From NCBI RefSeq assembly GCF_022539405.1, contig NZ_CP054394.1, positions 312,501 through 376,500 on the forward strand: a stretch of DNA of 64,000 bases, in the 5' to 3' direction. The first letter of the stretch is position 1; each line of letters starts with the position of its first letter. This DNA is from Natranaerofaba carboxydovora (GTDB lineage Bacteria; Bacillota; Natranaerobiia; Natranaerobiales; Natranaerofabaceae). Both the position numbers and the translations under genes were made by a program. Positions 2,252 through 52,365 of this stretch are shown in pieces. A model generated the notes under the pieces. It did no database searches and was not told the origin of the DNA. It saw only the letters and a list, made by a program, of their open reading frames with translations.

Positions 2252-2391
2252 AAGAACTCATCCTGAGACAGGTTAGCTAATGACTTCGGCGTCATTAGGC
2301 CTTATTTCGACTGCTTCCTCATTCAAGATGAAGATGTATTGCCAATTAAGATCAAAACTTTATTCATAGGACTTTTTGGCACCAGAATCAA
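2252..2391. repeat. Half copy of the 225-bp MITE (copy C)
   Basis: About 140 bp match the right half of the full elements at 30768 and 45170. Shared pieces are AAGAACTCATCCTGAG, TTAGCTAATGAC, CCTTATTTC, AGATGTATTG, and the terminal ACTTTTTGGCACC...AATCAA, with one extra G in the end motif. The outer end abuts the acnB stop codon, so the copy fills the acnB-icd intergenic space and would be transcribed in the operon mRNA. Confidence 0.75.
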
Positions 2392-4944
2392 TTATATATA
2401 ATCGAAATATTCTTCTTTAGAAGGTATCTCTCCAAGCAGTGCTGTTATAGCTGCAACATTAGCACTTCCCAAGTAGGTTTTGGAATCGGGTGGACCTATT
2501 CTTGATCTGTAATTTCTAGTTGTAGTAGTAAAGGCAGTAGACCCTGAGCCAATTCTGCGTTTGTTTCCCATACAGAGGCCGCAGCCGGGCATGATTACAA
2601 TTGCCCCTGCTTTTGTAAGATCTGCAAGACTACCATCTTCTGCTAGAGTGTTATAAATGTCTAGAGCTGCAGGAGATATAACAAAATGCACTCTTTGAGA
2701 GATATGTTTGTTTTTTAGTATCTTGGCTGCTGTTCTAATCCCTTCAATATCACCGCCCACACAGCTTCCTATAAAAACTTCGTCTATTTTGGTTCCTGCA
2801 ACTTCACTTAAGCGGCTTATGTTGTCTGGGTGGTGAGGCCTGGATACTAGTGGCTCTTTTATTTCATCTAAAGGGATTTCGATAGTGGCTTCATATTCTG
2901 CATTCTGGTCAGCAGAAGGAATTAAAGGATTTTTAAGGAATTTTTCTATAGCTTCTATATTATTTTTAACTGAGATAGAGCTTTCGCTATCGGGGCGTTT
3001 TTTTAGATAATCCAGATTATTTTTTATGGTTTCTAGCGTTACTTCGTCTGGAGGTATTGTGGCTGCAGAAGCGTTTCTTTCTGCTGCGGCATTTGTAAGG
3101 ATATAACGTTCATCACTATTTAGAAAACTGACCCCTTCCATTTCAATTATCCTGCCGTTATAAATATCCGGATTTCCAGTTTCTTTGGCGTATAGCACTA
3201 GTGTTGATACAAGGTCTCGTGCGGTAATACCTTCTTGTGGGCGTCCCTGGAAAATAACCCTGACGGATTTGTCCATGGTTAAATCTATTTTGCCGTGTTT
3301 CATAGCGCCTGCTACAATATCGGATGATGCTGGATAAGAAAGGCCGTGGGGAGTCCTGGTATGGGAGTCTCCGCCTACAATTACATCTGTTGGAAGTACA
3401 AAGCGGTTACCTATAGTATGGATTATACCTTCGCCAGGTGCTAAGGAGACGCCGCCGCGATTTTTGAAAAAGTCTGTCAGAAACTTATGTCTATCTCTTT
3501 CTTCGCTAGATGGGCACTCCCCGGTGTGACATAATGATTGAACAACAAATTCTGTTCCAAAATCCTCCCCTGCCATTTTTTGATATTCTTCAATTGTCAT
3601 TGGTCCTGTCGTATCTTGAGAGAAAACTCCTCTTACTTTGATAGGAGCAGTATCGCCTGGGTGTATATAATCCTTGCCGTCTAATCTATTCATGGTCGTA
3701 ATTTTTTGGGCTAGTGTCTGCGGTGGTTTTGATTCTTTAGTATTAGCAGAGGTCAATTTACTGGTTTTAAAGATGTTTTTTTGTGGGACAACATTGATAT
3801 TTTCGTTATCGCACCAGCCTTTAGCCCATTTTTGAAGATTTAATCCTGCTTCAAAATATATCATTCCACCGGCACTTATTTTATTGAGTTTGTATTGAAT
3901 GGGAAGTTCGACTGAAAGCTTTTCTTTTTCGTTTATTGATAGCGTTTTTTCTTCTATGTTTAATTTTAGACAGTCGCCTTCTTTAATTTTGTCTGTATTA
4001 CATTTGACGGGCAAAATCCCAGAGGCCACTAGAGAATTTTCAAATATTGGAGCGAAGCTTTTTGCTATGACGATGCCGCCGGATTTGTTTTCTGGTTCTT
4101 CTTTTATGGGAGTTCCTATTAACTGCAAGATGGAATAAGTAGCTGACTTTCGTGATGAGCCTTCGCCAAGGGCCTTGCCTGCAACAAGGATTGTGTTCTC
4201 CTTTGATTCTTTTTCTTTGTTTATTTTATTTACTCTCTTCCAGAGATCAGCTTCATCTTCCCTTCCCTCCATTATATAAAGAGCGTGAAGGGGGTGGTCT
4301 GTCCTTGTATGTGCCCTGTTAGACGGGCTTAGGTTGTCGGTAGTAATATTGTCGCCGATTTTTACTGCTTTTCCGTGGTAAATATCATTTATATTCCAGT
4401 ATTCTGCGAACTCTCCCTTGGCCCAACTTTTTATGATTTCATGAGCTAGGCCACTCACGTTCAGGTTAGGGTTCTTTGTGATTTTAGTTAATTTATCAAA
4501 ATCCTTTTTATTAACTAATACGGTGTATTTCAAAATATTTTTTATCTCTTCCGGGAAAATTTCTTTTTCTAAAAGATTTATAAGTTCAGCTGTGGCAGGG
4601 CCGCCTTTCATGTTACCAAGGATTTGCAGTGCATTCTTTTTATTAATGTAATCAGTTTTAATTTCTCCTGTGATAATTTTAGAAAGTCCTTTGGCCTTAG
4701 TATATGTTTCAGGGAAAGTTCCCCGGCGTACTTCTTCTTTCAATAGTCTAATTAGTAATTTGTCTATTCTTTCAGTTTCAAAGATGGTAAATTCTTTTTT
4801 GTCTAGATTCGGTTCTGTTAGGGCGTTAATTATGATATTTACTTCATTCTCATTTAGCGGCCGTGGTGGTAGTTTGAATGCTTCGAAGCGTGAGAGAGCC
4901 TTTTTTCTATAGTTTTCTAGAAAATTTTTTAACTCGTTGTTCAT
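2392..4944 (-). CDS. acnB: Aconitate hydratase B
   Basis: At 850 aa this has the AcnB arrangement: an N-terminal helical HEAT-like domain (about residues 1-160), then the swivelling domain (KIGDNITTDNLSPSNRAHTR, with GEGSSRKSA near residue 260), then the catalytic [4Fe-4S] domain. The cluster cysteines are visible in GSCVGG (about residue 726) and GCGLCMG (about residue 785). It isomerises citrate to isocitrate. It is the middle gene of the citrate operon, 65 bp after the citrate synthase gene, with an AGGAAG ribosome-binding site. Length and domain order match the AcnB class rather than AcnA. Confidence 0.95.
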   Translation of the reverse strand: MNNELKNFLENYRKKALSRFEAFKLPPRPLNENEVNIIINALTEPNLDKKEFTIFETERIDKLLIRLLKEEVRRGTFPETYTKAKGLSKIITGEIKTDYINKKNALQILGNMKGGPATAELINLLEKEIFPEEIKNILKYTVLVNKKDFDKLTKITKNPNLNVSGLAHEIIKSWAKGEFAEYWNINDIYHGKAVKIGDNITTDNLSPSNRAHTRTDHPLHALYIMEGREDEADLWKRVNKINKEKESKENTILVAGKALGEGSSRKSATYSILQLIGTPIKEEPENKSGGIVIAKSFAPIFENSLVASGILPVKCNTDKIKEGDCLKLNIEEKTLSINEKEKLSVELPIQYKLNKISAGGMIYFEAGLNLQKWAKGWCDNENINVVPQKNIFKTSKLTSANTKESKPPQTLAQKITTMNRLDGKDYIHPGDTAPIKVRGVFSQDTTGPMTIEEYQKMAGEDFGTEFVVQSLCHTGECPSSEERDRHKFLTDFFKNRGGVSLAPGEGIIHTIGNRFVLPTDVIVGGDSHTRTPHGLSYPASSDIVAGAMKHGKIDLTMDKSVRVIFQGRPQEGITARDLVSTLVLYAKETGNPDIYNGRIIEMEGVSFLNSDERYILTNAAAERNASAATIPPDEVTLETIKNNLDYLKKRPDSESSISVKNNIEAIEKFLKNPLIPSADQNAEYEATIEIPLDEIKEPLVSRPHHPDNISRLSEVAGTKIDEVFIGSCVGGDIEGIRTAAKILKNKHISQRVHFVISPAALDIYNTLAEDGSLADLTKAGAIVIMPGCGLCMGNKRRIGSGSTAFTTTTRNYRSRIGPPDSKTYLGSANVAAITALLGEIPSKEEYFDYI

Positions 4945-12169: not shown

Positions 12170-12211
12170 AATTAAAAATGCTATACTTATGTGAATATAC
12201 TTTTTGCACAA
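12170..12211. repeat. MITE fragment (copy G, one end)
   Basis: About 42 bp match the inverted left end of the full element at 30768: AATTAAAAATGCTATACTTA followed by TGTGAATATACTTTTTGCAC. It lies in the leader of the third ATP-grasp gene. Confidence 0.65.
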
Positions 12212-12308
12212 AAATTGCTGTTAAATGAAAAAATTTTGTGATGTAATATAATATTTATTAATGTCAGTTTAGTTGAAGGTTTGATAACAGCTAAAGGTAA
12301 AACAAATA

Positions 12309-13362: not shown

Positions 13363-13384
13363 TGATTCTGGTGCAAAAAGTCAT
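13363..13384. repeat. Single MITE end (copy E)
   Basis: TGATTCTGGTGCAAAAAGTC is an almost exact copy of the terminal inverted repeat of the full elements. It is placed between the arsR stop and the trxB leader; no partner end is nearby. Confidence 0.6.
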
Positions 13385-13385
13385 C

Positions 13386-13742
13386 TTATTTATCAGTTTC
13401 ACCTTTGTTGCTTCTATCTTCCTCTAATATTTCTTTTGAACTATTTACTAAATCAGATAAGCGTTCTAACATAACCTCTCTCATGATATCACATGCCTCA
13501 AGCACCCTTGGATTACACAACTCAAAATATACATTTAGGCCTTCTTTTCTTGTGCAAACAAGGCCTTTATCTCTTAATATTGACAAATGTTGAGAAGTAT
13601 TAGCTCTACTTGTTCCTAGTTCATTTGCTATCTCATCAACATGTTTTTCGCCTTCTTTTAAAAGATATATAATTTCTATTCTTTTAGCATTTGATAACAC
13701 TTTACACATATCAGCATGAAGTTCGTAAAGCTTTTTTTTCAT
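13386..13742 (-). CDS. ArsR/SmtB-family repressor
   Basis: A 118-aa winged-helix regulator: HADMCKVLSNAKRIEIIYLL, the recognition region ELGTSRANTSQHLSILRDKG, then a beta wing and C-terminal helix. Cysteines at LVCTRK and in ELCNPRVLEACD could form a thiol or metal sensor; the family includes metal, arsenic and sulfide/redox sensors. It precedes trxB in the same direction, so it probably controls thioredoxin reductase and itself. The inducer is inferred only. Confidence 0.87.
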   Translation of the reverse strand: MKKKLYELHADMCKVLSNAKRIEIIYLLKEGEKHVDEIANELGTSRANTSQHLSILRDKGLVCTRKEGLNVYFELCNPRVLEACDIMREVMLERLSDLVNSSKEILEEDRSNKGETDK

Positions 13743-14945: not shown

Positions 14946-14980
14946 TTATTCTGGTGCAAAAAGCCATTTGTAGCCAGAAT
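14946..14980. repeat. MITE end forming a small hairpin (copy F)
   Basis: TTCTGGTGCAAAAAGCCAT resembles the MITE terminal repeat. ATTCTGG and CCAGAAT on either side form a 7-bp stem with a 19-nt loop. It lies between the amidohydrolase and the selenoprotein gene. Confidence 0.45.
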
Positions 14981-30236: not shown

Positions 30237-30291
30237 ATTTAATTAATAAGTGAAAAGATTACAACAATTCTAACAAGGGGGCTTGCTATAT

Positions 30292-30765
30292 ATGGATAGC
30301 AAAACAATGTCAACAACAAACCATAAACTTGAATTGATATTAGAGAAATATAAGGGAAGAGAAGAGTCTTTGATAACTGTACTTCAAAAAGCACAGGACC
30401 TATACGGGTATCTGCCGCACGAAGTTATAGTTCGGGTAGCAGAGGCACTTGATCTGTCGCTAAGCAGGGTGTATGGTGTGGTGACTTTTTATTCTCAGTT
30501 TTATCTTAAGCCCAGGGGTAGAAACATTATTAGGATTTGTCAGGGGACGGCATGTCATGTCCGAGGTATAAAAAAGATTATAGGTAAGGTAAAGGAAGAG
30601 ATTGGGATTGATGAGGGTGAGACCACAGAAGACTTGAGATTTACCCTTGAATCAGTTGCCTGTATAGGAGCTTGTGGTCTTGCTCCTGCGATAATGGTTA
30701 ATGACGAAACTCATGGCAGGCTTACTCCTGATAGGGTGCCACTTATTCTTTCCATGTATGAATAA
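30292..30765 (+). CDS. hndA: Hydrogenase subunit A, NuoE-like [2Fe-2S] protein
   Basis: 157 aa with a thioredoxin-like [2Fe-2S] fold of the NuoE family. It has QDLYGYLPHEV and VYGVVTFYSQF, and the cluster cysteines in CQGTAC and VACIGACGLAPA. It would carry electrons between NAD(P)H and the hydrogenase within the multimeric enzyme. ATG 30292 is preferred, with AAGGGG 11 bases upstream. It is the first gene of the operon; a 225-bp MITE separates it from the second gene. Confidence 0.92.
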   Translation: MDSKTMSTTNHKLELILEKYKGREESLITVLQKAQDLYGYLPHEVIVRVAEALDLSLSRVYGVVTFYSQFYLKPRGRNIIRICQGTACHVRGIKKIIGKVKEEIGIDEGETTEDLRFTLESVACIGACGLAPAIMVNDETHGRLTPDRVPLILSMYE

Positions 30766-30767
30766 CA

Positions 30768-30992
30768 TTGACTCTGGTGCAAAAAGTCTATTCACATAAG
30801 TAAAGTGTTTTTAATTGATACATCTAAGATTCGTTAGCAGTCGAAATAAGACTACCTAATCCAAGAACTCATCCTGAGTTCAATTAGCTAATGACATCCT
30901 GCCATTAGGCCTTATTTCTCCAGCTTCCTCATCAAGATGTATTGCAATTAAAAACAAAACTTTGCTCATATGACTTTTTGCACCTTAGTCAA
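30768..30992. repeat. Full-length MITE (copy A) inside the hydrogenase operon
   Basis: A 225-bp element. Its ends are TTGACT-CT-GGTGCAAAAAGTC and the inverted TTGACT-AA-GGTGCAAAAAGTC. The interior is a long imperfect palindrome: TTGATACATCT pairs roughly with AGATGTATTG, and GAAATAAG with CTTATTTC. It is about 85% identical by eye to the copy at 45170. No gene fits in it. It begins 2 bp after the hndA stop and ends 23 bp before the hndB start. Confidence 0.88.
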
Positions 30993-31014
30993 AAAAATTA
31001 TAGGGGGGTTTACT

Positions 31015-44627: not shown

Positions 44628-45164
44628 TTGAATAAATATGTTAAAGAAAACATGCTTGATATTGTAGATAGTCAAGTTGATAAAGAAATGGCAGAAGAAA
44701 TAGTAAAGGCCTGGGCTAAAAATAAAAAAATAAATGTTGATATTATTAGTTCGAACAGAATATTGTATCCATTTTATTTTGGAGAATGCTTTATTACAAT
44801 AAGGCGAATACCTCCCCTTTCTCCAAGAGAGATTTTGCACCGTTGGTTTTTTGATTCAATAACTGGTCAACCATTTATGGTGCCAGAAAAGCCTGGGTCT
44901 AAGGAAGAAAAATGTCCTGATAATATGGAGATTCTATCTCCTGTTATAAAGGAAGAAGCTATCAAAAAGGATATGATTGACCATTCCCAAAGATATGTGA
45001 TAAGGTTCTATAAATACTTTTTTACTCCAGATATTGTAGTAGAAGAGATAAATCTTATGTATGTAATGGTATGGATATTTAGGTTTAAGGATAACAAAAA
45101 CGACTATGATAGGTTTATTGGGGTTAACTCTTGGAGCGGAAATCCAATGGAATTAGAGAATTAA
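44628..45164 (+). CDS. Hypothetical protein
   Basis: 178 aa, soluble, no signal peptide. I recognise no domain. Features are an N-terminal helix (DSQVDKEMAEEIVKAWAKN), a beta-like middle (YFGECFITIRRIPPL), FFDSITGQPFMVPEKPG, two HSQRYVIRFYKYFF-type aromatic stretches, and a C-terminal VNSWSGNPMEL. TTG 44628 follows GGGGAGG. It lies 66 bp after the symporter and may be co-transcribed. A full MITE follows directly. Confidence 0.6.
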   Translation: MNKYVKENMLDIVDSQVDKEMAEEIVKAWAKNKKINVDIISSNRILYPFYFGECFITIRRIPPLSPREILHRWFFDSITGQPFMVPEKPGSKEEKCPDNMEILSPVIKEEAIKKDMIDHSQRYVIRFYKYFFTPDIVVEEINLMYVMVWIFRFKDNKNDYDRFIGVNSWSGNPMELEN

Positions 45165-45169
45165 AATCC

Positions 45170-45394
45170 TGGATTTTGGTACAAAAAGTCTATTCACAAA
45201 AGTATAGCGTTTTTAATTGATACATCTAAGATTCGCTAGCATTCGAAATAAGGATTCCTAATTTAAGAACTCGTCCTGAGTTCAATTAGCTAATGACATC
45301 CTGCCATTAGTCCTTATTTCTCCTGCTTTCTCATCAAGATGTATTACAATTAAAAACAAAAATTTGTTCATATGACTTTTTGCACTAGAATCAA
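45170..45394. repeat. Full-length MITE (copy B)
   Basis: 225 bp, the same length as copy A. The ends read TGGATT-TT-GGTACAAAAAGTC and, inverted, TTGATT-CTA-GTGCAAAAAGTC. It aligns along its whole length with copy A, with matching internal blocks TTTTTAATTGATACATCTAA, GAACTC(A/G)TCCTGAGTTCAAT and TAGCTAATGACATCCTGCCA. It begins 5 bp after the hypothetical gene. Confidence 0.88.
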
Positions 45395-52302: not shown

Positions 52303-52365
52303 AGCTTTATTTCGACTGCTAGCGAGTTTTAGATGATGTGGATAGACTTTTTGCACACAGAATCA
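52303..52365. repeat. MITE fragment (copy D)
   Basis: This matches the reverse complement of the left half of copy A: CTTTATTTCGACTGCTAGCG, then TTTTAGATG, then (after a loss of about 40 bp) ATAGACTTTTTGCAC and AGAATCAG. It lies between smpB and the secreted-protein gene at 52383. Confidence 0.65.

Follow-up and report, generated by a model that had tools for sequence, protein, structure and literature searches.

A family of hairpin-forming type II MITEs in Natranaerofaba carboxydovora that shares its ends with IS1182-like insertion sequences of other Firmicutes

Two full copies and five remnants of a palindromic repeat lie in the window

The window analyzed here is a 64,000-bp stretch (positions 312501-376500) of the 3.26-Mb, single-contig genome of Natranaerofaba carboxydovora. 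Between a NuoE-like gene and a downstream gene that we take to be 2Fe-2S ferredoxin-like lies a palindromic repeat that recurs elsewhere in the window. Alignment of 30 copies from across the genome set the boundaries of the repeat unit at GATTC...GAATC and its true length at 221 bp; the original prediction of 225 bp had taken in two flanking bases on each side. Each end of the element is the 19-bp sequence GATTCTGGTGCAAAAAGTC, and the two ends are inverted, forming a long imperfect stem. The copies and their parts are as follows.

30770..30990, + strand: full MITE copy 1, 221 bp, 4 bp past the stop of the NuoE-like gene (30283-30765)
30770..30788, + strand: left terminal inverted repeat of copy 1, GACTCTGGTGCAAAAAGTC
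30972..30990, - strand: right terminal inverted repeat of copy 1, GACTAAGGTGCAAAAAGTC (as read on the - strand)
45172..45392, + strand: full MITE copy 2, 221 bp, 7 bp past the stop of ORF 44628-45164
2252..2391, + strand: truncated copy with one terminal end and one arm left, its outer end abutting the stop of an aconitase-like gene (2392-4944, -)
12170..12216, - strand: one-ended remnant, 47 bp, left arm
13364..13382, + strand: solo terminal repeat identical to the consensus, lying between ORF 13386-13742 (-) and a thioredoxin reductase gene (-)
14947..14965, + strand: solo terminal repeat, 2 mismatches
52303..52365, - strand: left-arm remnant, one-ended and internally deleted

The two full copies have the equal length and matching inverted ends that had been described for them, and they are 91% identical across 209 bp. 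Neither holds an ORF of at least 80 aa wholly within it. The five fragments noted alongside them are all real but unequal: one is a truncated copy, two are remnants with a single end and two are solo ends. The seven loci once counted as seven copies in 64 kb therefore stand as loci, but as copies they amount to two full elements and five remnants.

Copies are dispersed through the host genome and flanked by short target duplications

A genome-wide search, as the original prediction had proposed, returned further copies rather than none: at least 40 near-full matches, 140-227 bp long and 85-100% identical, a lower bound because 40 were scored out of 227 first-look candidates. Searching for the end sequence with up to 3 mismatches gave 203 ends (104+99) genome-wide versus 3 (1+2) for a reversed control pattern. 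The surroundings of most ends were examined as 102 merged stretches totaling 628 kb, and the ends were then paired into elements. At least 75 two-ended elements were recovered, 33 of them 217-223 bp long; most of the remaining two-ended copies are shorter, having lost sequence around the hairpin tip, and one-ended remnants occur besides. The 628 kb hold 171 ends at the same mismatch limit, with 134 in two-ended elements and 37 solo. Since the set was collected by end similarity, degenerate copies are under-represented in it.

Target-site duplications had been suggested as a check on mobility, and their frequency proved to be far above that of a shuffled null. Exact 6-bp duplications flank 10 of 74 elements (null mean 1.0, maximum 5) and exact 7-bp duplications flank five (null 0.29, maximum 3), while 30 of the 74 carry a 6-bp duplication with at most one mismatch (null 7.8, maximum 16). 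No duplication of 8 bp or longer was found among these flanks, and a clear duplication is lacking at 35 of the 74 copies. The flanks are AT-rich, with a consensus of about AANNTT. Such 6-7 bp AT-rich duplications show that the copies were inserted by transposition.

Two genomes of the same order, both of another family, gave no matches to the element ends. Conservation of copy positions in distant relatives, anticipated as a sign of RNA genes, was not seen. Neither of the two offered a clean empty site at the same gene junction. Both have a gene directly behind nuoE that we read as ATPase-like; this gene is missing in the host, where MITE copy 1 occupies the gap (30765-31013).

Elements sit between genes and shrink from the hairpin tip

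All 74 testable copies are intergenic, as had been predicted for those in the window: none lies inside an ORF, though ORFs cover about 85% of the 628 kb. The 59 copies in gaps between co-directional genes lie at a median of 12 bp past the upstream stop and 53 bp short of the following start; the start distances are approximate because ORFs were taken as the longest open frames. Within this group, 38 copies begin no more than 20 bp past the stop, against 15-24 on average in simulations and a maximum of 34 in 5000, and 39 share one orientation relative to transcription. The simplest cause of this placement is purifying selection against damage to genes and ribosome sites, together with an AT-rich target. 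Four copies (639048, 650815, 1005733 and 2270353) themselves complete the stop codon of the upstream gene, the last T of the target and the GA of the element making an in-frame TGA.

Most short elements have lost a single interval around the hairpin tip, and their junctions differ from one to another. Among 26 elements chosen as clean single deletions, the kept arms are closer in length than random splitting would leave them, with a mean absolute left-right difference of 12.5 nt versus 26.9-30.9 for random splits, none of 5000 of which was as low. This symmetry fits hairpin-tip deletion during replication or repair.

Compensatory changes keep the hairpin paired

The consensus folds at -92.6 kcal/mol into a single long hairpin whose tip is forked. 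The expectation that the interior could form such a hairpin was borne out by folding of both full copies (copy 1, MFE -70 kcal/mol, z -9.1; copy 2, -67 kcal/mol, z -9.3). In 32 full copies, standard pairs make up 94.3% of pair cells. Compensatory double changes appear in 52 cells, versus 15.6 +/- 3.1 in shuffles and 3-14 cells when the same count is made in structures slid by 1-3 columns; these pair counts are inflated by the shared ancestry of the copies, and subfamilies contribute part of the compensatory excess, as with an ACTG variant present on both ends. Compensatory changes keep the hairpin paired. The element had no Rfam match at gathering score, a tmRNA being the sole Rfam match in the window, and a scan of copy 1 found no terminator or sigma-70 promoter pattern.

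Insertion sequences with the same ends occur in other Firmicutes

The exact 19-mer was sought in a collection of genomes from 84,980 species, where it matched three Clostridia MAGs and, with a single hit, a Bacteroidales MAG; among 398 genomes of the phylum surveyed with GATTCTNGTGYAAAAASTC, six had matches, the host included. An IS with these ends, for which a search had also been proposed, exists in genomes other than the host. Matching ends (GATTCTNGTGYAAAAASTC) flank insertion sequences of 1935 bp (G155), 1883 bp (G280) and 1997 bp (G277) in three other Firmicutes genomes, each with one ORF of 541-544 aa, and the other two proteins share 92% and 69% identity with the G155 transposase. In G277 the element has ATTCTT on each side, a 6-bp duplication. 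The IS and the 221-bp MITE have in common only the terminal ~19-23 bp.

The transposase encoded between the GATTCTNGTG ends matched PF13751 (DDE_Tnp_1_6) at 4e-16 and also PF05598 (DUF772); PF13751 was above cut-off in both proteins scanned and PF05598 only in that of G277. Its best NCBIfam model is IS1182 (NF033551, 5e-43 to 6e-45), but at 148-154 bits (154.1 and 147.7) against an equivalog cut-off of 270 bits, we call it IS1182-like rather than IS1182. D161, D355 and E480 are invariant in five aligned transposase sequences and are likely the DDE residues. From the shared ends, the IS of these three genomes is likely the partner of the 221-bp MITE; since it was found only outside the host, mobilization is argued from the identity of the ends and the length of the duplications.

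As predicted, no transposase with such ends was detected in the window, and the host genome as a whole gave no match to the partner transposase at E<=1e-5. Other candidates were rejected. The host does carry two IS1182-type elements (L061, G000:C1:1968580-1971846, and L062, 1973236-1976469), 98.8% identical and less than 5 kb apart, but their ends differ from those of the MITE; each encodes a transposase of 328 aa, probably shortened at its C terminus. Inward-facing end pairs 1-2 kb apart also failed as insertion sequences: the pair at 765168/767092 encloses an ordinary gene, which we take to be argS-like; in a Peptococcaceae MAG (WRII01000013, L068 1108-2254) two exact inverted 19-bp ends have no transposase between them and bracket a gene that we read as MOSC/MogA-like, being either two independent solo ends or the borders of a unit that carries the gene; and the pair on contig C493 of G005 belongs to two complete MITEs.

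In G005 only an N-terminal remnant of the transposase is left, 44% identical and directly next to a MITE; G004 has a transposase fragment at a contig end, and G003 had no match. Two contigs of G387 (C13 and C48; L133, L134) break inside what appears to be the same IS end, GATTCTGGTGTAAAAAGTCTCTTTTC, with no transposase assembled, so this genome probably carries the IS too. Viral contigs gave just two single hits in unrelated context, and plasmids had no match to the 225-bp query. The nearest plasmid-borne relatives of the partner transposase are mostly haloarchaeal and 22-29% identical, and a quick scan of two of the haloarchaeal relatives gave no clear matching ends.

The unrelated Clostridia G003 and G005 (Clostridia bin_86 JAIFNI01 and Clostridiaceae GL140 JANYKF01) harbor ~200-bp MITEs with the same ends. 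Their interior strings seven hairpins one after another and has no sequence relationship to the 221-bp element. They mostly have 6-7 bp duplications (e.g. aagctt/aagctt, ataacat/ataacat), and in 11 elements from both genomes compensatory changes occur at 25 of 86 stem pairs. Sister elements with GATTCTSGTG ends, from JANYKF01 and JAIFNI01, include the following.

L115 20-221 and 1822-2022: sister MITEs
L118 1529-1729 and 3175-3375: sister MITEs
L120 3179-3379: sister MITE

Origin and fate of the elements

We consider it highly probable that these repeats are a type II MITE family that was moved in trans by an IS1182-like transposase, decayed at the hairpin tips and was left between genes. The original identification of a MITE agrees with the copies found genome-wide, their target duplications, intergenic sites and hairpin fold, and also with the occurrence in other genomes of an IS that has matching ends. 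Anatomy, copy number, IS-shared ends, target duplications, the deletion series, placement and covariation were established by computation, and the anatomy of transposition is well supported. Mobilization in trans by the partner transposase is what we infer from these sequences. An IS1182-like DDE transposase would have recognized the GATTCTGGTGCAAAAAGTC ends and inserted the element, making 6-7 bp AT-rich duplications of a target of about AANNTT. Insertions within genes are absent, the survivors being intergenic and often just past stop codons. Tip deletions after insertion shortened copies from 221 to ~95, ~60 and ~37 bp, or one arm was lost. The partner transposase itself appears to have been lost from the host, or has escaped detection there, and as it was not detected the copies are probably relics or dependent on re-entry of the IS.

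Transcripts that read through an element would contain a long hairpin between cistrons, which is probably a substrate of RNase III and likely cut by it. Any RNA role of the elements is presumptive, and we think it unlikely, if worth entertaining, that they have become intercistronic RNA parts, with the post-stop hairpin selected as an RNase III or exonuclease-stabilizing site that tunes operon expression. The strength of the hairpin, its position just past stop codons, the compensatory changes in its stem and the shared orientation of 39 of 59 co-directional copies would suit such a role, as would the cutting of Correia elements by RNase III (reviewed in PMC10969869). However, purging of harmful insertions and an AT-rich target at gene ends explain the placement equally well, and inter-arm templated correction or shared subfamilies could account for the covariation. 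Moreover, many copies are eroded, and neither of the transcription signals scanned for was found at copy 1.

Two readings in which no DDE transposase takes part seem very improbable. Were the repeats a dispersed family of structured RNA genes rather than mobile DNA, their stable, covarying fold would be accounted for, but this is contradicted by the target duplications and by an IS that has these ends, and likewise by the variable truncation of copies, the lack of any Rfam hit on the element in the window and the absence of end matches from the two same-order genomes. Equally slight is the chance that they are REP/REPIN-like palindromes moved by a hairpin-recognizing single-strand (Y1, RAYT) transposase: they are hairpin-rich, intergenic and numerous, but their 6-7 bp duplications, together with a DDE-transposase IS that has the same ends, point to double-strand DDE transposition.

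With trans-mobilized MITEs as the preferred reading, the family adds a large set of elements to a poorly studied order, tied to a transposase group by its ends and duplication length. Beyond identification of the MITE, the analysis contributes the partner assignment and the statistics of decay and placement; the graded tip deletions and post-stop placement provide a natural experiment on palindrome decay and on insertion survival in operons. The sister elements suggest that something keeps hairpin structure in MITEs with these ends. As MITEs with IS1182-like ends in distant Firmicutes keep their stems through compensatory changes despite different interiors, a single forked hairpin in the host and a string of seven elsewhere, we tentatively raise the idea, doubtful at present, that the hairpin plays a part of its own in how the elements move or in some function of the host. 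If so, selection could fall on structure over sequence, exerted either by the transposase or by RNase III as it acts on RNA between cistrons.

Relation to known systems

The 221-bp repeats are short and non-coding, with 19-bp inverted ends, target duplications, many dispersed copies and ends common to an autonomous IS. We describe them as a new family of type II MITEs of an IS1182-like system, a kind of element that is itself well known. Type II MITEs share only their ends with the autonomous IS, and the present family resembles them in this as in its small size, lack of coding sequence, inverted ends, duplications and copy number (PMC10969869); it differs in matching no described family and in that the host gave no match to its partner transposase. 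IS1182-like elements (NF033551; PF13751, PF05598) are the best-matching transposase family, with the likely DDE residues conserved, although the partner transposase scores below the equivalog cut-off. IS1272, which is placed in IS1182, replaces a stem-loop without making a target duplication (PMC5678879), whereas the 221-bp elements carry duplications of 6-7 bp. The seven-hairpin MITEs of JAIFNI01 and JANYKF01 have the same ends, mostly 6-7 bp duplications and compensated hairpins, and differ in their unrelated interior. Correia (Neisseria) and ERIC (enterobacteria) elements, whose ends are probably different, are like the 221-bp MITE in being intergenic palindromic MITE-like repeats.
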